From a virus, in the IMG/VR virus record IMGVR_UViG_3300017963_000225, positions 27,635-91,634 of that record: a stretch of DNA of 64,000 nt; one strand, written 5' to 3'. The notes under the pieces were generated by a model. The model saw only the letters and a program-made list of their open reading frames with translations. It was not told where the DNA came from and searched no databases. Both the position numbers and the translations under genes were made by a program. Shown piece by piece: positions 31,800-53,377 of this stretch (its first letter is position 1; every line of letters starts with the position of its first letter).

Positions 31800-34700
31800 T
31801 CAGTCCTCCTCGTCCAGGCCGAGCGCCTTCTTGAGTTTTTTTCCGCCAACCGCTGTCTCAATAAAGACAAGCTCGTCCATTGCGCGAGTGTAGGCGACGT
31901 ACATAAGATTCTTCTCTTGCACTATCTCCCACGGCTTCTTTGCCATGCTAGACGGCATCAGGTGGTGGTTGAGGATAAACACACGCGGCGCCTCAAGCCC
32001 CTTGGCCTTATGCACCGAGGACAGGCGCAAAATGCTATCGCGTTTCTTGCCTTCGTCATCCTTGAACATCGATTCGATTTCACGCACGAGCCCGTCAACG
32101 TCCTTGGCCTGACTTTCCGCCATGAACACCGAAAGGGTTTCAAACTTGTCCTCAATCGCCGTTGTGTCGGCGTCGGGATCTTTGAGTTTGAGCTTGTTGA
32201 TTTCCCGCTTACTCCACTCGACCAGCTTACCTCCGAGGTCGTCGAGGCTCTTTGGCTTGAGCTTCTTAATGAGTGAGGTCATGCCCAAACCGATGTCACG
32301 CCCCATCACCTTGCACGGCACGCGCTCGCGCAGCAGCTTGTAGGCCATGCTGACCAGCGGCGCGTTGTTGCGGCAGACAATCATATCGGTCTGCTTGAAG
32401 TCCTCGATCTTGAACTTGGTGCCGAGGTCTTTGATCTCGCCTGGCTGAGCATCGGGACGCGGCTTGATGCCTGGAACGATTGTCTGAGCCAGCTCGATGA
32501 TTTTCTTGCCGCAGCGGTAGGAAATCGGCAGCTCGAACACCTTAGCGTTGAACTGCTTGCGGATCAGGTCGAGGCTCTCGGGGTTGGCACCACGGAAGCC
32601 GTAAATGGCCTGATGCGGGTCGCCGACCGCCACGACGCGCGTTTTGGTGTCGGTCGAACGCCGGATCGCCTCGCGCTGAATGTCGGACACGTCCTGCGCC
32701 TCGTCAACGAACAGAAAGTCGTACTTGGCCCAAGGCGTGTTGTAGATGATCGGCATATAGAACTGGTCGTCGAAGTCGATCACGTCCTTTTGCATAATGG
32801 ACTTCTCAAGCGCCAGGCGCGACAGGCGGATAGCATGCTCGACCGTCTGCGGGTAGTCGATTTCAATCGAGAAGTGCTCGATGAGATTTTCCCACTGCTC
32901 CCTGGTGTCGGGCACGAGCCCCTTGATGCCGTGTGCGGCAAGCGAGGCTGGCGCCAGGCCCATCTGCTTGGCCTTGGATACCATGCTTTTCACCGTCCCG
33001 AAGTATGTCTTGTCCTCGGGACCTTGCAGCATGTCGCGTAGGATAGCGCTGGTCTTGGTGCCCTTCTCGACCTTGACCCGGTTGTAGCCGCCCATGAAAC
33101 GCGCCCATGAGGCAAAGCCAAGCGCGTTGAGTGTCCGCACCGCCTTCTGATCGACAGCCCACTGCGGGACACGGCCGAGCAGCTCGTCGCGAGCCGAGGT
33201 GTTGAAGGCCAGGAAGATGATCGACTTGTCGCGTGGGATAACGTCGAGCGCCCGCACGATCGTGGCCGTCTTACCAGATCCGGCCTTAGCATCAATCATC
33301 GCGTTGCCGCTGCCCTTCTCGATCCAATCGAAAATCGCCTGCTGATATGGCGACGGCTTGAACGGTTTTTTTGGCTCATGTCCCGGAGCGTCTTTGGGCT
33401 CAGGATCGACCGGAACCTTGGGCTCGGGTTCTTGAGATGGCGGCGGCAAAACAACGGCGGGTTGCATGGTGGGAGCCTCCTGCTTAGGCGGCTCCTTCTT
33501 CGGAGCCGGTGGTTTTTCTGCGGGTTGTTTTACCGTGCCGGCCTCCTGTTGTCTACGCTTGGCCTTGGCCTTCAAAGCTTGCGTAACGAGGTCGTCAGGT
33601 TGTTTCTTCTTATCAAGCCTCTTGTCATCCCAAGCGACAGCTTCCTCGAACGTGACCTCGCGGCCGGCTTGTTTCATAAGCTTGGCCAGGTGACGCTTGG
33701 CCATCGCGATATTTTGCTGCTCCTCGCGCGGCGACGCCTCGCCGTCTCGTGACGTGCGCTCGGGCTCCAGCTCCAGGTGAGCGTGCCAAATTTTCTCCAT
33801 CAGCTCATCGCTGATCTCTTCCTTCTTTGACTTAGCCTTTTTTGGCTCAGCCTTCTTCTTCGGCTCGGGCTTGGCGGTGGCCTCGACGCGCTTCTTACCC
33901 TGCTCGTGCAGCAGGTCGTGGTAGCGCATCACCGTTTCATGGATCTTGCCGGCGGTCTTTTCCCAGCCGCTGTTCTTCCAGTCGTCGTCGCCGAACATTT
34001 CCGAAAAATACTCATGGTGATCGTCGGGGGAGGTCGAGTGCGGGTGAATGTCTTTCTTGTGAAGGTGATTGGCCCAATGCTTGACACCGGCTGTGAACTC
34101 TTTCTTGATCGCAGCGTAGTCCTTGCGTTTCTTGTAGCCACCGGCCTCAAGCGTCTTCTCGGCAAGGCGCGGCAGGTGCTCTTTCTGCCACTTGTGGTCG
34201 TCCACCTTGACGTAGGTGCCGTCTGCCCACTTGCGGCGGGTGCCGACCGGCGCCTTCCTGGCCTTGAAGAAAAACCGCACGAGCCCGCCTCGCGGCTCGA
34301 TAGCTGGCGGATCGACAAGCTTGATGCCGATCCGTGCGACGACAGCCTTCCTGATCTTGTCGTGCTTCAAAATGTACTCCATCAGCTCCGCGATGCGTTC
34401 TTTGTACTTCCAATCGGGAGCGTCCGCGTGTTTGGGGTCGTCCTTGGTGTAATAAAGCGCATGCGGCACGAAGTTGTCGATGTAGCTCTTGTCGATCTTG
34501 CCAGCGGCAATCAACTCCTCGGCCTTCACCAAGCCATACACCTCAAAGGCTCGCGCAAATACCTCGGTCGGCTTGTTCAAGTAAGCACTGAACGACTGTC
34601 CCATCATTTTGCCTTTGTGCGACCACTGGTAGTAGGGCGTCGAGCGCACTAGCTCCAGCATCTCTTTGTACTTGGCCTTCAGCTCAGGATCGCTGGCAAT

Positions 34701-36716
34701 GGCGGCCGAGCGCGGCGTGCTGTCAGTTCCCTCGTGCATGGCATAGTCGATGGCGTGTCCAAGCTCATGGATCATCGACTTGGAGTCGCTCGTGAAGTCG
34801 TGGATCTCCACCGACAGCTTGCCATGCCAGTAGGTGGCAGCCGCACGGGAGGCGCGCTTGCCCAGCCGGGCGTTCACCCGGAAGTGCAGCGGCCGGATGA
34901 AACGCACCCCCATGTGATCCATGATGATGTTGGTCTGCTTAATCATTTGCAGGATGCGGAAGCGCTGATCCTTGTTCGTCTTGGCCAGATCAACGCTACG
35001 GATCATGTTGGTGCGCGCCTGCACGGCGTCGTTGACCTCGGGCGGTATTTCGCCCGACAGCAGCGGGTAGTCCTTCTTGGTGCCCTCTCCCAGCTCGTAG
35101 CCGGCCTGGTGCGCGGAGTAGGCCAGCGCTTGGTGGCGCAGCGCGTACTCCTTCTTGAGCCGCAACATCGCCTTGCGGCGGCGCTCATGCTCCTGCAAGG
35201 ATGCGCCGCTTTCCGCCTGATCGCGCTCGAAGTGATCTCCGGCGCTCCTGGGCTGATCGTCGAGCCCGAAGGCGGCACGCACGTACCACTGATCCTTCTC
35301 GATGTGACGGATGACCGCCAGCATCTCGTCCACCCATTTTTTCTTGGGCATCAGGTGGGCGTTTACTTCGAGCTGGTTGTGCTTCAGCCACCACTTCTTG
35401 GCTTCCTTCGCCTCGGCCTCACTGCCGAACGAGCCGACCGTGTTTTTGCGGTCCCTGCCGATCGAAACCAAGTCGAAAATGCCAGGACGATCCTCGCCGC
35501 CGAGGCCGACGCCGCTATGGATTTCATACGTGCGCTCGCGCTCGGCCATGCCACCTCGCTTGAGGCCCTTGGCCCTCTTGTGGCCCTCGTGCTTCAAAAA
35601 CCCGTAATAGTTTTTGACGATGGTATGCACGGTGTCGGCGGTCTTCTGCCAGCCGCTCTTATGCCACTCGGGGTCGTCGAACACCTCGGCCCAATGCTCA
35701 TGGTGCTCATTTGGCTTGGTGTGCTCTGGGTGCTGGTCGTTGGCGTGCAGGTAGTCGGCCCAATCGGATGCTGCCCGCACAACTTCCTTTTGGATCTCTT
35801 TGAAATCCTCGCGCTTGGCGTGACCGTGGTCCTTGAGCGCCTTCACCGCTAGTTTCTTTACCGTCTCGCGATGCCAGTTGTGGTCATCGACCTTGACGTA
35901 AACCCCATCAGCCCAGGTGTGGCGCGTGCCGACCGGAACTTTCTTTGCTTTGAAGAGGAAGCGCACCGAGGCTTCTCCTTTCTTGAGGCTGCCTCGATGC
36001 TCCAGCTCGGCCTTGAGCGAAGCAAGCATAGCCTCGTGTGACTTAATGGCAAATTCGCTTTGCATGCCCTCGATCTTGGTGATCCGCTCCTTAATCGCCT
36101 GCTCGTCGAGGTGAGCATACTTGCGGCCGACGCCGCGCACGTCGAACAGCGTGCCGATCTCGATCTCAAAGTCTTCCTGGGCGTGCTTCTTGCCGTTGAG
36201 CGACTTGTCGTTGTATTTGCGGAAGCCGCCCATGTCGAGCAGCTTGAGGTTTCCATCGCCGTCGCGGGCAAATTGCAGCTTGTCCCACGGGTAATAGCCC
36301 TCCTTGCGGAAGATGCGCCACAGCTCGTCGCGCACCGCCTCGGGCTCGCCGCGCTTGAGGTCGCTCATTTCGATCGGCTTCAGGTGCTCACGCGCCAGAA
36401 ACAGCTTCTTGCCCTTGCGCCACGTCGCGTAGTGCTTCGGAATGAGCGAGCTGCCGGCAAGATCCTTGAGCGCGTTGTGCTCCAGCATGAGGTCGTCGCG
36501 GGCACCCTTGGGCGTTTTCTTCGGAGCGTGACGCGCCTGGAAAGGCGCCTGCTTGGACACCTTGACGGCCACGTCGCCGATCGGCTCGACCTTGGCGTGA
36601 AAGACATGCCCTTGATGGCCATGGCCGATGTACTTCCATTTGCCGTTGGCGATCTTCTGCCAGTCGCCATGCACAGTGCCGATCGGCACGGCCTTAGCTT
36701 TCAACAGAAACATCAT
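31800..36716 (-). CDS. Polyvalent fusion: kinase-like, metallopeptidase, UvrD-like helicase
   Basis: A 1638-residue protein in three tagged modules. Residues 1-250 begin MMFLLKAKAVPIGT and carry a kinase-like fold: Gly loop GHGHQGHVF (31-39), VAVK (Lys52) and DMGG (Asp161) in place of DFG; no HRD is visible, so it may be inactive. Residues 251-812 begin VRFLFKAKKVPVGT and contain a zinc site HELGH (650-654), with Glu718 in KPTEVFARAFE as a likely third ligand. Residues 813-1638 begin VRFFFKARKAPVGT and hold a UvrD-like SF1 helicase with AKAGSGKT (1143-1150), VDEAQD (1337-1342), AVGDPHQAIYGFRG and VAYTRAMDEL. Modules 2 and 3 share a duplicated ~130-residue segment. It lies in the head operon, so packaging and injection are inferred, as for P1 DarB and polyvalent proteins. 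Confidence 0.75.
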   Translation of the reverse strand: MMFLLKAKAVPIGTVHGDWQKIANGKWKYIGHGHQGHVFHAKVEPIGDVAVKVSKQAPFQARHAPKKTPKGARDDLMLEHNALKDLAGSSLIPKHYATWRKGKKLFLAREHLKPIEMSDLKRGEPEAVRDELWRIFRKEGYYPWDKLQFARDGDGNLKLLDMGGFRKYNDKSLNGKKHAQEDFEIEIGTLFDVRGVGRKYAHLDEQAIKERITKIEGMQSEFAIKSHEAMLASLKAELEHRGSLKKGEASVRFLFKAKKVPVGTRHTWADGVYVKVDDHNWHRETVKKLAVKALKDHGHAKREDFKEIQKEVVRAASDWADYLHANDQHPEHTKPNEHHEHWAEVFDDPEWHKSGWQKTADTVHTIVKNYYGFLKHEGHKRAKGLKRGGMAERERTYEIHSGVGLGGEDRPGIFDLVSIGRDRKNTVGSFGSEAEAKEAKKWWLKHNQLEVNAHLMPKKKWVDEMLAVIRHIEKDQWYVRAAFGLDDQPRSAGDHFERDQAESGASLQEHERRRKAMLRLKKEYALRHQALAYSAHQAGYELGEGTKKDYPLLSGEIPPEVNDAVQARTNMIRSVDLAKTNKDQRFRILQMIKQTNIIMDHMGVRFIRPLHFRVNARLGKRASRAAATYWHGKLSVEIHDFTSDSKSMIHELGHAIDYAMHEGTDSTPRSAAIASDPELKAKYKEMLELVRSTPYYQWSHKGKMMGQSFSAYLNKPTEVFARAFEVYGLVKAEELIAAGKIDKSYIDNFVPHALYYTKDDPKHADAPDWKYKERIAELMEYILKHDKIRKAVVARIGIKLVDPPAIEPRGGLVRFFFKARKAPVGTRRKWADGTYVKVDDHKWQKEHLPRLAEKTLEAGGYKKRKDYAAIKKEFTAGVKHWANHLHKKDIHPHSTSPDDHHEYFSEMFGDDDWKNSGWEKTAGKIHETVMRYHDLLHEQGKKRVEATAKPEPKKKAEPKKAKSKKEEISDELMEKIWHAHLELEPERTSRDGEASPREEQQNIAMAKRHLAKLMKQAGREVTFEEAVAWDDKRLDKKKQPDDLVTQALKAKAKRRQQEAGTVKQPAEKPPAPKKEPPKQEAPTMQPAVVLPPPSQEPEPKVPVDPEPKDAPGHEPKKPFKPSPYQQAIFDWIEKGSGNAMIDAKAGSGKTATIVRALDVIPRDKSIIFLAFNTSARDELLGRVPQWAVDQKAVRTLNALGFASWARFMGGYNRVKVEKGTKTSAILRDMLQGPEDKTYFGTVKSMVSKAKQMGLAPASLAAHGIKGLVPDTREQWENLIEHFSIEIDYPQTVEHAIRLSRLALEKSIMQKDVIDFDDQFYMPIIYNTPWAKYDFLFVDEAQDVSDIQREAIRRSTDTKTRVVAVGDPHQAIYGFRGANPESLDLIRKQFNAKVFELPISYRCGKKIIELAQTIVPGIKPRPDAQPGEIKDLGTKFKIEDFKQTDMIVCRNNAPLVSMAYKLLRERVPCKVMGRDIGLGMTSLIKKLKPKSLDDLGGKLVEWSKREINKLKLKDPDADTTAIEDKFETLSVFMAESQAKDVDGLVREIESMFKDDEGKKRDSILRLSSVHKAKGLEAPRVFILNHHLMPSSMAKKPWEIVQEKNLMYVAYTRAMDELVFIETAVGGKKLKKALGLDEED
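33888..34280 (-). repeat. Internal duplicated tag and VDDH module, copy B
   Basis: Residues 813-943 of the giant protein: tag, PVGT, ADGTYVKVDDHKW, a helical segment and HHEYFSEM...SGWEKTAGKIH. It begins at GTG 34280 with a weaker GAGGCGGG upstream. It aligns with copy A over its full length, indicating duplication followed by fusion with the helicase. Confidence 0.75.
35562..35966 (-). repeat. Internal duplicated tag and VDDH module, copy A
   Basis: Residues 251-385 of the giant protein: tag, PVGT, ADGVYVKVDDHNW, a helical segment and an HxEHW...SGWQKTADTVH block. It begins at GTG 35966 with AAGGAG about 9 bases upstream, as though it were once or still is a separate start. Copy B lies at 33888-34280. 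Confidence 0.75.
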
Positions 36717-38013: not shown

Positions 38014-41000
38014 TCACTCCTCATCGCCTTCGATATGATGGCGAACGCCATTATACCCGCGCTGGTTTTCCTGGAACATCGCCGCCGCTGAAAGAAGCAC
38101 CTTCTTTGTCTTGGCGCTTGCCTTCTCGCCTAGCTTTTTCTCAAGAGCCGGCCAGAAACTGTCGGCCTCCTTCGGATTTGCCACGTCGCCGTCGCCTAGG
38201 TGGTCGAGCTGGCGCGAGCCAAGGTGCTTCACCATGTCCTTCAGGTGCTCGCCCATGTGCTTTTTGATCTTGGCGTCGGACTTGATGCCGTGCGTGTTGA
38301 GGGCCGCCTCGACAGCCGACTCGTGGTCTTGGTCCTTGTGCGGAGTATGCGCCTTCCCTGAAGCCCAGCGATCCACCGTGTCGCGCATCGCCTTCTTGGT
38401 GCCATCTGTGAGCTTCTCTTTGTGCTTCTTCTCGTACTCGTTGACATACGAGCTGAAGAGAGCGTCAGTCACCTTCTTGCCCTTGCCCTTCGCTGCCTCG
38501 TGACGCGAAGCAAGCTCGACAATGTGCGGCATGATGCTTCCTTCGATGCCACGATCAAAAAGCAGGTGGTGGTCCTTCTTTCCACGCGAGCGCAAGTGAT
38601 CGCGAAAGTGCCCAAGCAGGCCGTCTTTCTCAGAGTCCTCAACCGTGCCGCTGCCGACGACACCGCCAGCATACTGCTGATAGCCGGGCTGGCCGTGCAT
38701 GGCCTGCGCCTGCTCGCCACCGATCGGCGCGGCCGTCGATCGCTTGTACTGCGGATCGCCGTCCTCGCCGGTGTACTTCTTCGCGTATGCCTTCCCTTCC
38801 TCGTGCTGGAACTGAAGGATCTTCTGCCCCAGCTCGTGGTACTTCGGAAGGATTTCAGACTTGCGCATTCCCCTGATGTTTTCGAGGTTAAGCGTGATCG
38901 CCGTCTCGGTGTCGGTGTCGTCCATGTCCGAAACGATCATCATGTTCGTGTGAAGCTTCGCCATGAGGCGCACGTACTTCGTCACGTCCATCGTGTCGTC
39001 AACAAGGCCCAAGTGAATGTTGACGGGCTTGTCTTGGCCGAAACGCCAGATTCGCGCGTAAGACTGCTCCTGCGTGCCAGGCGAGTAGTGGTGATCGTAA
39101 CGGTACATGCCGTTGGCGATTTGCAGGTTGACGCCCTCCGTGACCGACTGATCGACGGCGACGATGATCTGCGGTCCCTTGGGGTCGTTCTGGAAGTCCT
39201 CAAGCTCCTTCTTGTGCGAGGCGTCGTAGTAAATCGCCTTGCTTTTCAGGTGCTCTGGCATGTGGTCGAGAACGTGCTGGGCGCTCATGCGGCGCTGGCA
39301 AAACACAATAAACTTGCCGTTCTTGGGGTCCTTGAAGTGCTCGTCGAGCTTCGCATAGAGGTCGGTCGCCTTGGGGCTGACCTTGCCCTTCAAGGCGCGG
39401 ATCGCCTTGCGCGTGTCGGGTGACAGCTTCGACAGAAGGTCGATCGCCTCCTGCTTCTCGGCCTCAAGCTCGGCCGCCGCGTCCCCTCTTAGCTCTGCCT
39501 TGATCGCCCGCGCAGCGGCACGAGTCCCGCCGAGGGTGGATATCGCTTTCTCGACCGTCTCGGCCAGTGTGTCGGGATGGTCCGTGATGCCCATAAGCAC
39601 GTTGAATTTGCTCATGAACGCCGGCTTCGCATCGCCTTCGCTGGGAAGGAAGTCCTCGCTCTCGTCCCCGACACCGCTCTCCTCCAAAATCTGGGAGATC
39701 ACGTCGTCGAGCGCCGTCTCGTACACGCCCTGCGTCGTCGCGTCGTGCTTGACTACGGACATATGCTCGTTGCGCTGCGGCAGCTTGTCGATCCATGCCG
39801 AGCGCCGGATGCTCACAAGCCCCATGCGCTGCAAATCTTCGCGCAGCTTCTTCAGGCCGTCGCGGGACCACTTCACCGACTTCGGCCCGCGCCCCTTGCC
39901 CTTGTTGCCCTTGCCGCCGCCTACCACCGCCCCGAAAGCCGCGTTGCCTTCCAAGCCCTTCGCGGCGCCGCCCTCGTGCCCATAGGCTTCCTTGAACTGC
40001 TTTTCGGTCCAGTTGACGTAGGGGTGCAGAAACTTGAGCTGGCCGATGGCATCGAGCGGGTTGTTGGAGATGAACGTGCCAGACGCCACGCGCTTGTACT
40101 TGATGCCGCTAAGGTGCTGCACCGCCTTGAATCGTGACGTTTCCGTCGTCTTGATCCGGTGCGACTCGTCGAGGGCAACGTAGTCGAAACCCGAGGCGCT
40201 CAGGCGCTTGGCGTTGGCGTAGTCGTCGGAGCCCTTGGGCTTGTAGGAGACAAAATCGTAGCCGGCCATGAAGATGGTGTTGGGTGGAGCCTCGTCCATC
40301 GCCTGCATCATGGCTTCCAGATCGCCCTTGAAGTCATCCTTGAGCGTCTTGGCGCTCATTTTGAACACGTTGACGCGACCCTCGGTGTACTTCTCGGCCG
40401 TCAGCTTGGCGTTCTGGTCGAGCGTGTTGGTCGGCACGACGATCAGCGGCTTCTTGATCTTGCCTTTCGCCATGAGGTTGAGGGCATCGGCCGGCAGGAT
40501 GAGCCCCTTGCCGCCGCCCATGTCCACGTCCACCATGGCGTTGGTCAGGCCGTCGAGCTTGGCGAGCGTCTCGGCTTGGTGCCCGAAAAACTTGATCGAC
40601 GACGAAAGAGCTGGGATATGCGGGCAGTCCTTAGGGCCAAGGTGTGCGACCTTTCCAGCCTCGTCAAAAATCCTCTTCACGTCCTCGATGGCGTGCTCGG
40701 AGTGCTCGCCCATCAGCTTGCCGAGCGCCTGCTCGTGCGTCCCGCGCATCTCTGGATCGGACGCCACATCGTCAAAGAAATCACGCAGCACCGGGTCCTT
40801 GTGCGTGTACGCCTGGGCATACGTCGTCACGTCGCCGTGTGTGTCGTTCAGGTGCTTGGCAATCTTAGACACATGGTTTTTGTATATCCAGAAATCGGCT
40901 CCCAACTCGTTACGAAACCTTGGCGTCGGCGATTCTTTCTCCGCTTCGAGAATCTCGTCGAGGAAGGCGTCGTAGTCTTTGATGCCCTTGGAGCGCTGCC

Positions 41001-41331
41001 AAATTTCCCGCGCGTGCTCGTCGGGCCGGTAAACGCCGTTCAAAAACCGCGACTTCTCATCGTGGTTCATTTCGCCTTTGTGCTTGAACACGTCAGGCGC
41101 AACGGCCTTGCCCTTTGTCCTCAACGACTGCCATCTCTTCGGCATCACCGTCGTCGATTTGTCGTCGGAGTGAATCACCTTGCCGGCGAACGTGCCTGGG
41201 TCCTTCTTCGCCTGATCGCGCTTGTCCTGGTGCTGGTCGATGTAAACCAGGCTGCCGTTGGGAAGATGGCGGTAGTGCGCCTTGACGGCGCGCGACTTGA
41301 TGAGCGCATTAGGTCCGAAATAAAGCCTCAT
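38014..41331 (-). CDS. SNF2-like helicase, putative virion-packaged (DarB-like)
   Basis: An 1105-residue protein. It begins MRLYFGPNALIKSRAVK and then YRHLPNGSLVYIDQHQ, a diverged version of the tag plus ADGxYVKVDDH module. From about residue 245 it has SF2 helicase motifs: MVDVDMGGGKGL (motif I), LIVVPTNTL (Ia), LDESHRIK (II, 387-394), RVASGTFI (III), then a C-terminal RecA-like lobe with FIVFCQRRMSAQHVL and a VI-type segment QSYARIWRFGQDKPVNIH, which together indicate the SNF2/RapA family. The C-terminal 250 residues are charged and unrecognised. It lies between portal-region genes and MuF, so I infer it is loaded into the head; P1 DarB is an SF2 protein injected with DNA. Confidence 0.75.
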   Translation of the reverse strand: MRLYFGPNALIKSRAVKAHYRHLPNGSLVYIDQHQDKRDQAKKDPGTFAGKVIHSDDKSTTVMPKRWQSLRTKGKAVAPDVFKHKGEMNHDEKSRFLNGVYRPDEHAREIWQRSKGIKDYDAFLDEILEAEKESPTPRFRNELGADFWIYKNHVSKIAKHLNDTHGDVTTYAQAYTHKDPVLRDFFDDVASDPEMRGTHEQALGKLMGEHSEHAIEDVKRIFDEAGKVAHLGPKDCPHIPALSSSIKFFGHQAETLAKLDGLTNAMVDVDMGGGKGLILPADALNLMAKGKIKKPLIVVPTNTLDQNAKLTAEKYTEGRVNVFKMSAKTLKDDFKGDLEAMMQAMDEAPPNTIFMAGYDFVSYKPKGSDDYANAKRLSASGFDYVALDESHRIKTTETSRFKAVQHLSGIKYKRVASGTFISNNPLDAIGQLKFLHPYVNWTEKQFKEAYGHEGGAAKGLEGNAAFGAVVGGGKGNKGKGRGPKSVKWSRDGLKKLREDLQRMGLVSIRRSAWIDKLPQRNEHMSVVKHDATTQGVYETALDDVISQILEESGVGDESEDFLPSEGDAKPAFMSKFNVLMGITDHPDTLAETVEKAISTLGGTRAAARAIKAELRGDAAAELEAEKQEAIDLLSKLSPDTRKAIRALKGKVSPKATDLYAKLDEHFKDPKNGKFIVFCQRRMSAQHVLDHMPEHLKSKAIYYDASHKKELEDFQNDPKGPQIIVAVDQSVTEGVNLQIANGMYRYDHHYSPGTQEQSYARIWRFGQDKPVNIHLGLVDDTMDVTKYVRLMAKLHTNMMIVSDMDDTDTETAITLNLENIRGMRKSEILPKYHELGQKILQFQHEEGKAYAKKYTGEDGDPQYKRSTAAPIGGEQAQAMHGQPGYQQYAGGVVGSGTVEDSEKDGLLGHFRDHLRSRGKKDHHLLFDRGIEGSIMPHIVELASRHEAAKGKGKKVTDALFSSYVNEYEKKHKEKLTDGTKKAMRDTVDRWASGKAHTPHKDQDHESAVEAALNTHGIKSDAKIKKHMGEHLKDMVKHLGSRQLDHLGDGDVANPKEADSFWPALEKKLGEKASAKTKKVLLSAAAMFQENQRGYNGVRHHIEGDEE

Positions 41332-47290: not shown

Positions 47291-47562
47291 TTTTTTCCCT
47301 CAGGACGCAAAACACGATATTCATAATGCCCCAGCGCAGGGGCGCCGCGATGGCGTTTCTCAACGATATAAGAGCCGAATCGTGGCTTTCGCAAATGCCG
47401 CAGTTGAGCAGAAACCGATGCAGAAGCATACCCAGTAGCCGCTTCAATCTCGCGCAATGTTCGCCACACACCGTCAAGCATGAGTTCACGAATGCTTGCA
47501 TGTTGCTTAGTGAGCCTTTCGCTGTCCGTGCCGTGGTCGTATGATGGACCGTTGAACCTCAT
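47287..47562 (-). CDS. Winged-helix DNA-binding protein
   Basis: A 91-residue protein, start at ATG 47562 overlapping the stop of the glycosyltransferase gene. GVWRTLREIEAATGYASASV followed by SAQLRHLRKPRFG and a basic wing matches a winged helix-turn-helix. It may be a transcription regulator of the accessory genes. The frame is open to 47598. Confidence 0.65.
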   Translation of the reverse strand: MRFNGPSYDHGTDSERLTKQHASIRELMLDGVWRTLREIEAATGYASASVSAQLRHLRKPRFGSYIVEKRHRGAPALGHYEYRVLRPEGKK

Positions 47563-48767
47563 AACAGCTCCAGATGGCGTCTGGCGACGTTCTCCCAACT
47601 ATTCACGCGCAAAAACTCAGCCTGACGCCCTAATTGAGCCTTGCGCTCGTCCGCACTCGAAAACAAGCCGGTCAGTGCCTGCACAATCCCGGCTACGTCC
47701 GACACCCTCGGAGCGACGCCTTGCAGGTCGTGGAAATGGGGCTCTGTTGACGCCACGATAGGAATGCCATGGCTCATGGCGATCCGCGCCGCTCCCGAAC
47801 AACCAAACACAGTATGGTCGGGTGCTGCACAGTAAGGAAACACCGCTGCCTGGTTAGTCCTCAGATAGCTCCCAAGCGTCTCGTCGGATTGAAACCCGCG
47901 CACAATGGCGACGTTCTCCTGGACGCCAAGCTCATCGACAAGCTCGTGCAAATCTTGCGCGTAAGCATCATGCTGTACTTTGGCATGAGGCGATTCGCTG
48001 AATAGCGCCGTAAAGAATACGTCGGGAAGGGTTTGCCGTAGCTCAGCCACGGCTCGAATGCACGACTCAAAACCCTTATAGCGGAAACCGAAACCAAACT
48101 GCATGAATGTGTGCTTGGATCTGTAAAGATTCCAGTATTTCTCACCGCTGTTGAACGAGTGACAGCCGTGCGGAATGACATGAACATCGCCCGGAACTTT
48201 CTTCTCGTTCTTTAGAACGTCGCGAGCCAGCTCAGTATGAACAATGATGTTCGGTACGGCTGCTTCGCAGATGGTCTTGTCCTTGTGATGGAATACGCTG
48301 TGCAAGGTGACAAACACCTTGTAGTCGCGCAACGCACTCAAAAACGCGAGCCAGTGCCTTGCGTCGGGAAACAGGCCGTACTCGTGCTGAATCATCACAA
48401 CGTCAGGATCGAATTGCTTGATCTCGTTGACAAGTCGCATAAGCGGCTGGCCGCGCTTCCACGACGGCACGAGCATCGTCTTCTTCAGGTCCTCGTCGGC
48501 AAACCAATCAGGAGAACGCTCGACAGTACCCTCCTCGCAGAAGATGCGCGCCTCGGCCACGCCGGCTATTAGGTGCGGCCACAGTGCCTCGGCATAGGTG
48601 CTGATGCCGCAGCGCTCCTTGTAGACGCCGACCAGGGCCACGCGCAGCCGAGAAGGCTCGACGCGAGCGGCCGTGTCGATGAGCTGGCCTTGACGCACCA
48701 CGAAACGCTCCATGAGCACACCGTCGGCAATCTCCTCAAGATGCGCCGGCACCTCCAGGACTTTCAT
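47559..48767 (-). CDS. Glycosyltransferase (GT4-like)
   Basis: A 402-residue protein starting MKVLEVPAHLEEIADGV (ATG 48767). It shows the two-lobe GT-B form: RVALVGVYKERCGISTYAEA (Gly-rich donor or acceptor loop), VVMIQHEYGLFPDARHW, then RYKGFESCIRAVAELRQTLP, VAIVRGFQSDETLGSYLRTN and CSGAARIAMSHGIPIVAST, the last being the conserved nucleotide-sugar region of GT4 enzymes. It could glycosylate a virion protein or alter host surface sugars. Encoded right after a pyruvyl transferase-like gene, so the pair may act on one glycan. Confidence 0.75.
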   Translation of the reverse strand: MKVLEVPAHLEEIADGVLMERFVVRQGQLIDTAARVEPSRLRVALVGVYKERCGISTYAEALWPHLIAGVAEARIFCEEGTVERSPDWFADEDLKKTMLVPSWKRGQPLMRLVNEIKQFDPDVVMIQHEYGLFPDARHWLAFLSALRDYKVFVTLHSVFHHKDKTICEAAVPNIIVHTELARDVLKNEKKVPGDVHVIPHGCHSFNSGEKYWNLYRSKHTFMQFGFGFRYKGFESCIRAVAELRQTLPDVFFTALFSESPHAKVQHDAYAQDLHELVDELGVQENVAIVRGFQSDETLGSYLRTNQAAVFPYCAAPDHTVFGCSGAARIAMSHGIPIVASTEPHFHDLQGVAPRVSDVAGIVQALTGLFSSADERKAQLGRQAEFLRVNSWENVARRHLELL

Positions 48768-48802
48768 GCCGCTGTCATCACTGTATTGAACATGATGGCT
48801 GC

Positions 48803-49801
48803 TTACAGCCCTAATTTGTCGGCCACGATAGGCACAATATCGAGCCACCTTTTTTTCACTCCCTTGGCATAGTCGGTATTGGGCAATTGGCTTCCAGACA
48901 GCAGATCAACGGTGTCGAGAAGCTGTCTGTCGGTAAAGCCGTAGTAGGGCACCGTCTCGATGCCACTGTCCATGGCAAAAGCATTCATTTTGTCGTGGCT
49001 ATTGATAAGGATTGCATGACGGCCGAGGGCAGCCGAAAACACAGCGCCGTGCAGCCTTTGAGTAACGACCAGGTGCGAGCGCGCAATCGACGCCCGGCAC
49101 TCGGCCTCATCCATGTAGCCCATGCGCGAGAAGTAGCTCATCGGATCGGAGTTCATCTTGCCCGTCACCGCCCACATCGGCCGCTCGTCCGATTCACGCG
49201 GATTGACGCACATGGCGTAGAAGCTGACGTGCAATCCGTCATCGATCATGCGATCGAGCGCCTTGGCCATCTCGCGGACAAACCACTCGTGCGCCTGATA
49301 GGCCCAAATCGGCGCGTCCCGGCGCGGCGTCAGATGGTCGCTGAGAAACACGGCCACCATCCTTGACGGCGGCTGCTCGCATAGCTGCCAATAAACATCG
49401 TCGCGGGCTAGAACAAGGTCGCCGGCGTAATGGACTTTATTACGGTCTATTTCATGTATACGAGTCAGCTTGTCGAACGACAAACGATCGCGCACGACGA
49501 TCAGCTTGGCTTTTTTCAGCAGCTTGCTGTGGTCAGGATGCACCACGTCGCCGCAGCTCACCCCGAGATAGGCAATCGGCATGCCCTCAGGCAGGTGAAT
49601 GTCAATGCTTCCGGCCACCGCCTGATCGAGAAAGCTGCCGCCGCCGAACACCACGGCGTCAAATCTTATCGCCAGTCGCTCCGGAAGCCTGTCGGCGAAC
49701 GTGAAATCAACACCAGGGAAAAGCCCGGTAATCGCCGGACGAAAAGCCTCGTCACCCAAATTGCCGTGGCCGTACCAACCGTAAACAAGCACCTTCGCCA
49801 T
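48803..49801 (-). CDS. Polysaccharide pyruvyl transferase-like protein
   Basis: A 332-residue protein starting MAKVLVYGWYGHGNLGDEAF, the PF04230-type opening, with AGAGGT before the ATG. FDAVVFGGGSFLD, SKLLKKAKLIVVRDRLSFDK and a C-terminal ARSHLVVTQRLHGAVFSAAL...HAILINSHDKM are the family's core. Enzymes of this type add pyruvate to sugars of exopolysaccharides or cell-wall polymers using PEP. In a phage it may modify host or virion glycans. Start choice: frame open to 49834. Confidence 0.75.
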   Translation of the reverse strand: MAKVLVYGWYGHGNLGDEAFRPAITGLFPGVDFTFADRLPERLAIRFDAVVFGGGSFLDQAVAGSIDIHLPEGMPIAYLGVSCGDVVHPDHSKLLKKAKLIVVRDRLSFDKLTRIHEIDRNKVHYAGDLVLARDDVYWQLCEQPPSRMVAVFLSDHLTPRRDAPIWAYQAHEWFVREMAKALDRMIDDGLHVSFYAMCVNPRESDERPMWAVTGKMNSDPMSYFSRMGYMDEAECRASIARSHLVVTQRLHGAVFSAALGRHAILINSHDKMNAFAMDSGIETVPYYGFTDRQLLDTVDLLSGSQLPNTDYAKGVKKRWLDIVPIVADKLGL

Positions 49802-49837
49802 TGTGTCTACCTCTCTAACATTTATTTCTGACACACA

Positions 49838-51345: not shown

Positions 51346-51744
51346 CTAATGAACGAGATTGTCCGTTTTCTTTACTAAGCGTGGTGTTAATTTTTTGAAA
51401 GGGTAGTTTTTGATTATTGTTTGTAGCTCAGTGCCGCAAAACGGACAGAAATTCAAAACGACTAGAGAGTCCCCCCCCTTCAAAACAATCACAAGTGGGT
51501 GCTCGCTGTCCGTGTAGGCAAAAATGTTACCCTGCCTCAGGTTTTCCACCAGCGCTTCACATAAAGAATCTTCCGTGCAGCAGCTCATATCATGGGGCAC
51601 CGACTCCGACTCCAATTCCGATTGGTCCTCGAAGCTTGTTGTATTGCGCCACGAGGAAAACTCCAAGAGCCAGTGGAGCGACGGCCATAATGATTGCCAC
51701 AACCAAGCAAGCAACAAAATGACCATAGCCTCGATCATCGTCAA
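51346..51744 (-). CDS. Membrane-anchored protein with CPFCG motif
   Basis: A 132-residue protein. Residues 1-30 are a hydrophobic helix (MVILLLAWLWQSLWPSLHWL), a likely membrane anchor. The rest includes CCTEDSLC and FCPFCGTEL, the latter a possible zinc knuckle (C-x2-C). Translated with the RyR gene (ATGA overlap). Function unknown. Confidence 0.6.
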   Translation of the reverse strand: MTMIEAMVILLLAWLWQSLWPSLHWLLEFSSWRNTTSFEDQSELESESVPHDMSCCTEDSLCEALVENLRQGNIFAYTDSEHPLVIVLKGGDSLVVLNFCPFCGTELQTIIKNYPFKKLTPRLVKKTDNLVH

Positions 51745-52247
51745 ACCTCATCGGTCGGCTCCGGTACTGAAGTCAACGGTCGCAGAAGCAGTGCGCGAAC
51801 AATCGCGTTAAACAGCTCGTCCTTCTGTCTTTGGCCGAGTGGAAGCTTGTCGTAAGTGATCAAGCACGGGTGCTCTTTCTTAGCAACGTCCTTGACCTCG
51901 CCATACCGCCAGCCGCTTGCAAGCTTCTCGATCATCCAATTTTCATGCAGGGCGCTTGGTGACGACAGTGGGTTTCTGATCTTGAACAAAATGCCGTTGC
52001 ACGTTGTCTCCTTCATCCAGTCCTCGGCGTCGTCCCATGGTGGGCTGGCGGCCTCGCCGAGCGTTACCTGCAACGCTCGATTTGCCTCGTGACACACACG
52101 AGCACAAGCGAGTATGTGGCCTGTGAGCATGAGGATGCTCTTTCCCTTGAAGCGGTCCTGAACTCCTGGCGGAAATCCGTCGAGGTATCCTTCGTCAAGC
52201 ATCTTTGCCATCACGGCCGCTGACAATTGAGCATCCAAAACAGTCAT
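51741..52247 (-). CDS. RyR-domain protein
   Basis: A 168-residue protein. The C-terminal half has the RyR repeat pattern: LSSPSALHENWMIEKLASGW, YGEVKDVAKKEHPCLITYDK and LPLGQRQKDELFNAIV. RyR domains occur in bacterial and phage conflict or signalling proteins and are proposed to sense small molecules. The N-terminal part (QDRFKGKSILMLTGHILACA) is helical. GAGGGG precedes the ATG. Adjacent to an HNH nuclease and an Acb2-like gene, so a role in defence interference is possible, as inference. Confidence 0.7.
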   Translation of the reverse strand: MTVLDAQLSAAVMAKMLDEGYLDGFPPGVQDRFKGKSILMLTGHILACARVCHEANRALQVTLGEAASPPWDDAEDWMKETTCNGILFKIRNPLSSPSALHENWMIEKLASGWRYGEVKDVAKKEHPCLITYDKLPLGQRQKDELFNAIVRALLLRPLTSVPEPTDEV

Positions 52248-52668: not shown

Positions 52669-52875
52669 TCAGCGATTACCCAGCACGCAGCGCACGGCCG
52701 CGTCCTTGGCTTCCAAAAGCTTTCTCAGCGCCACGGCCTGCTCCTCGGCATCGACGGCCGGCGTGTTGACGATGATCCTGGCAAGATCCTCGAAGTAGCG
52801 CGCCACCTCCCGCAGGTGCGGCGGCAGGTGACAGCTATTGAAGTAGCGCATGATAGGTAGTTCTTTACTAGACAT
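52669..52875 (-). CDS. acb2: Acb2-like cyclic-nucleotide sponge (anti-CBASS candidate)
   Basis: A 68-residue helical protein (ATG 52875 behind AAGGAG; a GTG precedes it). The order MRYFNSCHLPPHLREVARYF, DLARIIVNTPAVDAEEQA, VALRKLLEAKDAAVRCVL matches the DUF7681 / Acb2 pattern, where a small helical protein forms hexamers that bind cyclic di- or trinucleotides and so block CBASS and Thoeris signalling. The basic and aromatic residues of the family's binding face are plausible here but I cannot test them. It sits within an accessory cluster next to RyR and HNH genes. The match is from recall, hence moderate confidence. Confidence 0.7.
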   Translation of the reverse strand: MSSKELPIMRYFNSCHLPPHLREVARYFEDLARIIVNTPAVDAEEQAVALRKLLEAKDAAVRCVLGNR

Positions 52876-53377
52876 CACATTTCTCCTTTATCACGTTATT
52901 CTCCGCGTCCTCGCGCCGCTTCTCCAGGTACCGCGTGTGTCGTGCGCGCGACTCGCTCCAAGTGCAAGCGCTATAGCCGCATCCCCGCTCGTCAGCGCCG
53001 AACGACGAGCACATACGAGGACGAATGTCGTAGATGGTGCAGTTTCCACCGACGTAGTGCTTGCACTTGTAGTGATAGACGGGATCGCTCGCCGATTCGA
53101 GCCCTGCTTCGCGTGTCCTCTCTCCGTCAGGGTGCTCGTGTGATTGCCTGATGTACGTCAACATAGGGTAAATCAGCTCAATGTCCTGATAAATCGGCAG
53201 CGACAGCTTGCCGCCGAGCCGGTGCCTATCGCGCCCTTGCATTTCAATCACCACCTGCTCGCGAAAGTCCTTGCTGCGAATAGCAAGCATGTATGAATCT
53301 CGCAGGTCACTTGGCGCCAGCGGCAGTCCGATGTTCTCGCAGCAGTGCCCGGTGCATCGTCCGCATTGTTCTTTCAT
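52868..53377 (-). CDS. YkgJ-family cysteine cluster protein
   Basis: A 169-residue protein with MKEQCGRCTGHCCENIGLPL at the start (CxxC, CC), then YKCKHYVGGNCTIYDIRPRM CSSF-type cluster near residue 100-130. This eight-Cys pattern is the YkgJ / CxBxCC family thought to bind Zn or an Fe-S cluster. Role in phages unknown; could modify or demodify a host protein. Overlaps the Acb2-like gene by 8 bases. Confidence 0.7.
   Translation of the reverse strand: MKEQCGRCTGHCCENIGLPLAPSDLRDSYMLAIRSKDFREQVVIEMQGRDRHRLGGKLSLPIYQDIELIYPMLTYIRQSHEHPDGERTREAGLESASDPVYHYKCKHYVGGNCTIYDIRPRMCSSFGADERGCGYSACTWSESRARHTRYLEKRREDAENNVIKEKCDV

Follow-up and report, generated by a model that had tools for sequence, protein, structure and literature searches.

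Acb2 proteins have one short helix followed by two long helices that run antiparallel (PMC12043709), and Acb2-type sponges are regarded as limited to particular phage groups (PMC11722364). In the T4 protein, residue Y8 has been shown to be necessary (PMC12657218, PMC12657230). Acb4, the Pfam PF13876 family (PMC11722364), is another anti-CBASS sponge and has a different fold, according to its authors. The phage RyR proteins called RyDEP in a 2026 preprint either cleave 2'/3'cADPR or sequester it, and overcome Thoeris; their ligand or catalytic residues are H75, W78, H100 and D117 (PMC13232231). The main text of that preprint mentions neither Acb2 nor Acb4, nor any fusion of RyR to them (PMC13232231).

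The window considered here is the whole 64,000-nucleotide stretch of viral DNA that was analyzed. An earlier annotation (the original prediction) had placed in it a 68-aa Acb2-like anti-CBASS sponge that would bind cyclic nucleotides. Comparison with the described systems supports membership in the wider hairpin superfamily, and the residues by which Acb2 holds its ligand are replaced.

The 68-aa gene and its setting

The gene holds at its predicted coordinates on the minus strand (Table 1), with the ATG at 52875 and the end of the stop codon at 52669 in the ORF list, and a ribosome-binding site precedes the start. An alternative GTG at 52878, 3 bases upstream of the ATG, would give a 69-aa product. 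The C-terminal ending that the original prediction singled out, VALRKLLEAKDAAVRCVL, is present and is followed by GNR.

The description of the surroundings as a cluster of small accessory genes also agrees with the sequence, in which the 68-aa gene lies within a series of short, mostly overlapping minus-strand genes. The order of transcription is the CxxCxxCC gene, which overlaps the 68-aa gene by 8 nt, then the 68-aa ORF, the HNH-like ORF, the RyR-domain gene, the 132-aa ORF and the CsrA-like gene. The HNH-like ORF thus separates the hairpin gene from the RyR gene two genes downstream, a gene that was absent from the original prediction and that changes the picture. The cluster apparently serves counter-defense.

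Table 1. Features around the 68-aa gene, in order of transcription.
Feature	Coordinates	Strand	Basis or remark
CxxCxxCC putative metal-binding protein, 169 aa	52868..53377	-	Pfam PF03692, 27.5 bits (cut-off 23)
Ribosome-binding site AAAGGAG	52883..52889	-	7 nt before ATG of the 68-aa gene; from sequence
Putative divergent Acb2/Tad1-hairpin protein, 68 aa	52669..52875	-	ORF, phrog_1761 match, AF2, profile-profile comparison
HNH endonuclease-like ORF, 125 aa	52258..52635	-	Pfam PF01844, E 7e-8
RyDEP-like RyR-domain protein, 168 aa	51741..52247	-	Pfam PF02026, 41 bits (cut-off 27.4)
132-aa ORF	51346..51744	-	Weak DUF6980 similarity, below cut-off; overlaps RyR gene by 4 nt
CsrA-like phage RNA-binding regulator, 68 aa	51122..51328	-	Pfam PF02599, 56.4 bits

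The 91.6 kb virus record also contains terminase-, sheath- and SSB-like ORFs, as judged by eye from their sequences. Several other minus-strand ORFs of the window were noted in passing. A 1638-aa ORF (31800-36716) has a C-terminal UvrD/Rep-type helicase region (PDB DNA helicase II, E 1e-16). A 1105-aa SNF2-family helicase-like ORF (38014-41331) lies near portal- and terminase-like genes and possibly, at a guess, encodes a virion-packaged anti-restriction helicase. Two overlapping ORFs (47559-48848 and 48803-49834) appear by eye to be glycosyltransferase-like and polysaccharide pyruvyl transferase-like.

A widespread phage family

The 68-aa protein is matched by phrog_1761 (E 4.5e-18) and phrog_5120 (E 7.7e-14), both of which are listed in PHROGs as of unknown function. 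Relatives are encoded in 288 GenBank phage records (from phages of Vibrio, Erwinia, Acinetobacter, Gordonia and others), in 465 of 500 pattern-matched IMG/VR stretches, and at 62 loci of sequenced bacterial genomes, with up to 63% identity to the window protein among the IMG/VR and bacterial sequences. The PHROG matches and the relatives in phage records and IMG/VR stretches place the ORF far from chance and confirm that it is a real gene. The near-invariant core of the family is F-x3-HLP...L-x3-S...F-x2-LA...E-x3-A-LRKLLEAKDAAVR, and H17, E56, K58, D59 and R63 are fixed. A search for conserved gene neighbors of the family found none, as expected for a mobile accessory gene.

Searches of the PDB with the single sequence and with the family profile gave no meaningful match, and those of NCBIfam and PADLOC were empty or gave chance matches. 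One relative has a weak TetR_C match that was judged to be chance. Another member of the family (L035:1563-2078) carries a C-terminal extension of about 100 aa, which we take to resemble a widespread family of small phage proteins.

Relation to the Acb2/Tad1 hairpin

The original prediction rested on a match to the DUF7681 pattern. We take DUF7681 to be an earlier designation of what is now Pfam PF24729 (Acb2_Tad1_hairpin). That part of the prediction did not survive a direct search, in which the PF24729 model had no match in the window protein and the T4 Vs.4 control scored 71.4 bits. The best family member scored 21.4 bits (E 3e-4) and fell short of the curated cut-off of 27 bits; sub-threshold matches in five family members all share one register. 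What stood was remote homology, visible by profile-profile comparison. With hhalign, the family aligned with 14 PF24729-type proteins over 52 columns in register (probability 93.1%, E 3.2e-7), where known Acb2 sequences aligned with the same set reached 97.6%. When the 14-sequence profile was run against 18,556 ORFs, 80 had E<1, and 66 of these were members of the hairpin family, out of the 81 family ORFs present; nearly all of the remainder were other hairpin proteins. These comparisons indicate that the 68-aa family is a remote homolog of the Acb2/Tad1 hairpin. Other helical Pfam families match weakly too.

The closest branch by profile comparison consists of uncharacterized actinophage and Paenibacillus proteins of PF24729/phrog_1454 (RFxYHPP...IR...MWANAxIAR). 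Its F-x-Y-H-P N-terminus, helix 2, P-x-x-E turn and helix 3 align with the window family across the 52 columns, but that branch has an invariant Arg in helix 2 and MWANA, where the window family has Ser and KDAAVR. The link to Acb2 is clear only by way of this branch. Direct profile comparison of the family with T4/Falsigemmobacter-type Acb2 was weak (probability 6%), and with the family HMM those sequences could not be told apart from decoy ORFs. The two groups are bridged by phrog_1454, which matches both T4 Vs.4 and members of the hairpin family, and to which the canonical hairpins belong (E 1.5e-23).

Predicted fold and ligand-contact residues

The AF2 model of the 68-aa protein (pLDDT 90) has helices at residues 8-13, 20-38 and 44-67, so that the predicted fold is the Acb2 layout of a short helix and two long antiparallel helices. 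Once the family itself is set aside, the nearest named structures in BFVD are those of Acb2/Tad1 hairpin proteins. Solved Acb2 structures are 7UQ2 for T4 Vs.4 and 8H2J, 8H2X and 8IXZ for Pseudomonas phage p26. Foldseek found no Acb2 among the 39 PDB matches of the model. This absence is informative because a control model of similar size, that of a 61-aa PF24729 protein, retrieves 8H2X at rank 1, and Tad1 as well. Tad1 and the 68-aa protein have the same type of C-terminal alpha-hairpin (E-x3-A-L...E-A), but the ORF and the AF2 model of the latter consist of the hairpin only, with no Tad1-type N-terminal beta domain.

The Tyr/Lys pair that is invariant in the Acb2 set (Y7/K22 in alignment A2, Y8/K23 in T4) is not kept in the family. 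We take the corresponding dinucleotide contacts of the Pseudomonas phage Acb2 to be Y11 and K26, a spacing that was confirmed. At the Lys/Arg contact position the family has Ser and the window protein Ala, in alignments A2, A3 and A5 and in the hhalign register; the equivalent of T4 Y8 is uncertain because the N-terminal helix differs. In alignments read by eye, T4 F82 falls opposite Leu and T68 opposite Arg. Since these contacts are replaced, and H17, E56, K58, D59 and R63 are fixed instead, the pocket, if there is one, differs, and the ligand need not be cGAMP or cA3. The binding of 3',3'-cGAMP or cA3 and the block of CBASS that had been predicted would be plausible, though the contact residues do not support them, and some other nucleotide signal may be bound instead.

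Taken as a whole, the family resembles Acb2 as a small phage protein with the same order of helices, remote homology in register and RyR as a fusion partner. It differs in its invariant LLEAKDAAVR, its conserved H17, K58, D59 and R63, and a shorter inter-helix loop, as well as in the Pfam score, the contact residues and the Foldseek result given above. Acb2-like identity as originally proposed is thus retained for the hairpin homology and the helix layout, but not for the direct HMM match, the contact residues or the retrieval of solved Acb2.

The RyR-domain neighbor

The RyR protein of the window exceeds its Pfam cut-off (Table 1) and matches both the solved ryanodine-receptor domains and the bacterial RyR domains in the PDB. 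Its residues H100, W103, H125 and D142 (alignment A6 numbering) correspond to RyDEP H75, W78, H100 and D117, so that all four ligand residues are kept, with a spacing (+3, +25, +42) identical to that of RyDEP. These residues make it likely that 51741-52247 is a RyDEP-like anti-Thoeris gene. Most of the tested RyDEP homologs only bind; to judge from its sequence, the window protein may either cleave cADPR isomers or only sequester them.

RyR-hairpin linkage and fusions in other phages

No RyR gene was found at E<=0.001 in any of 46 other family-carrying contigs, which are fragments. Adjacency is therefore no general rule and partnership with RyR would be optional; conserved adjacency was dropped as an argument, and the fusions and the linkage seen from the RyR side were kept. 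In 80 IMG/VR RyR loci there are 12 non-redundant hairpins; 10 of them are within 1 kb of the RyR domain, all on the same strand. The density of hairpins near RyR is about 18-fold that elsewhere in the loci, a value reached by none of 200,000 random placements.

The window hairpin family is joined to RyR in at least two contigs. In 3300049893_001406 one ORF carries both; its hairpin is 54% identical to that of the window over 59 aa, and its RyR part 46% identical to the window RyR domain over 115 aa. Contig 3300046684_000187 has a second such fusion, and in contig 3300040801_000782 a canonical PF24729-type hairpin stands at the same place in an RyR fusion. The common position means that RyR can be paired interchangeably with the window family or with canonical hairpins. 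In Sulfitobacter phage phiCB2047-B (L291:1519-2085), RyR and PF24729 occur in one protein, both above cut-off. Fusions in L291, L366, L333, L344 and L391 show that either order is possible: the hairpin is N-terminal in L391 and C-terminal in L291 and L366. The L366 fusion has a canonical Acb2-type domain in which the Acb2 Tyr and Lys are kept.

At E<=0.001, the only Pfam partners in a set of 36 long RyR ORFs are PF24729, in four, and PF13876, in one. The PF13876 (Acb4 family) domain is fused to RyR in Vibrio phage vB_ValP_FGH (OL762410.1, L290:1213-1878), a possible dual anti-CBASS/anti-Thoeris protein to judge from its domains; the record of the window phage has no Acb4 homolog. The RyR proteins at L317:5296-6267, L309:5959-6876 and L340:5959-6858 have a long C-terminal extension of a common kind, with no Pfam match at E<=0.001. 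Apart from the fusions, a second and different Acb2-type hairpin gene lies directly downstream of the family gene in two loci (L018:401-829, L069:158-541).

Interpretation and alternatives

The reading that we prefer, with a probability of roughly 0.55, is that the 68-aa protein is a divergent hairpin of the Acb2/Tad1 superfamily, an oligomeric sponge for a nucleotide signal, expressed with a RyDEP-like RyR protein that acts against cADPR signals. The protein would be a small three-helix member of the alpha-hairpin superfamily and would most likely assemble into oligomers, which would bind a nucleotide-derived bacterial immune signal and act as a sponge. It would be expressed together with the RyR-domain protein, its partner would bind or cleave cyclic ADP-ribose (Thoeris) signals, and evasion of immunity by the phage would follow.

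The nearest competitor, which we consider unlikely, is a functional Acb2, that is, a hexameric sponge for cyclic di- and trinucleotides (3',3'-cGAMP, cA3) that blocks CBASS. Superfamily and topology are common to both, a canonical hairpin (L391) and the family (L372/L373) occupy the same RyR-fusion position, the L366 fusion has a canonical Acb2-type domain, and in L018 and L069 another hairpin gene directly follows the family gene. The loss of the invariant Tyr/Lys pair, the substitutions at the Lys/Arg, F82 and T68 positions and the failure of Foldseek to retrieve a PDB Acb2 argue against it. The fusions would also fit a protein that is mainly an oligomerization or assembly module, aiding the RyR protein in trans by increasing that protein's avidity for ADP-ribose signals rather than serving as a sponge itself. 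Tad1 likewise joins a hairpin to another ligand-binding domain, and its hairpin helices contribute to the gcADPR pocket (PMC12043709). Most family members, however, have no RyR gene in their contig, and the conserved polar residues E56, K58, D59 and R63, with H17, suggest a binding site beyond mere packing, which makes such a role improbable in our estimate. That the protein is an unrelated small helical phage protein, a regulator or structural accessory with a convergent likeness to Acb2/Tad1, would accord with the unreached Pfam cut-off, with the commonness of two-helix hairpins and with the weak matches to other helical families; given the profile-profile E of 3e-7, the top-80 rank of 66 of the 81 family ORFs and the interchangeable fusion partners, we regard it as very improbable.

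A broader proposal goes beyond the preferred reading of a divergent nucleotide-signal sponge and is tentative, with the odds somewhat against it. Phages may join RyR, as the anti-Thoeris part, to interchangeable anti-CBASS sponges (Acb2/Tad1, the new hairpin, Acb4). The window would hold the unfused form, and the new family would serve as a sponge whose pocket differs, perhaps to fit a signal that has no known sponge.

Significance

The fold class and the type of mechanism are already known; the open-access literature searched names neither the hairpin family nor its divergent motif or RyR fusions. With this family, the Acb2-type sponges would gain a widely distributed branch that escapes curated models, and the change in its pocket predicts a ligand other than theirs. 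The RyR fusions form a short list of proteins open to direct testing. Their recurrence, with Acb2/Tad1 hairpins and with Acb4, suggests that a single phage protein may combine anti-Thoeris and anti-CBASS modules.
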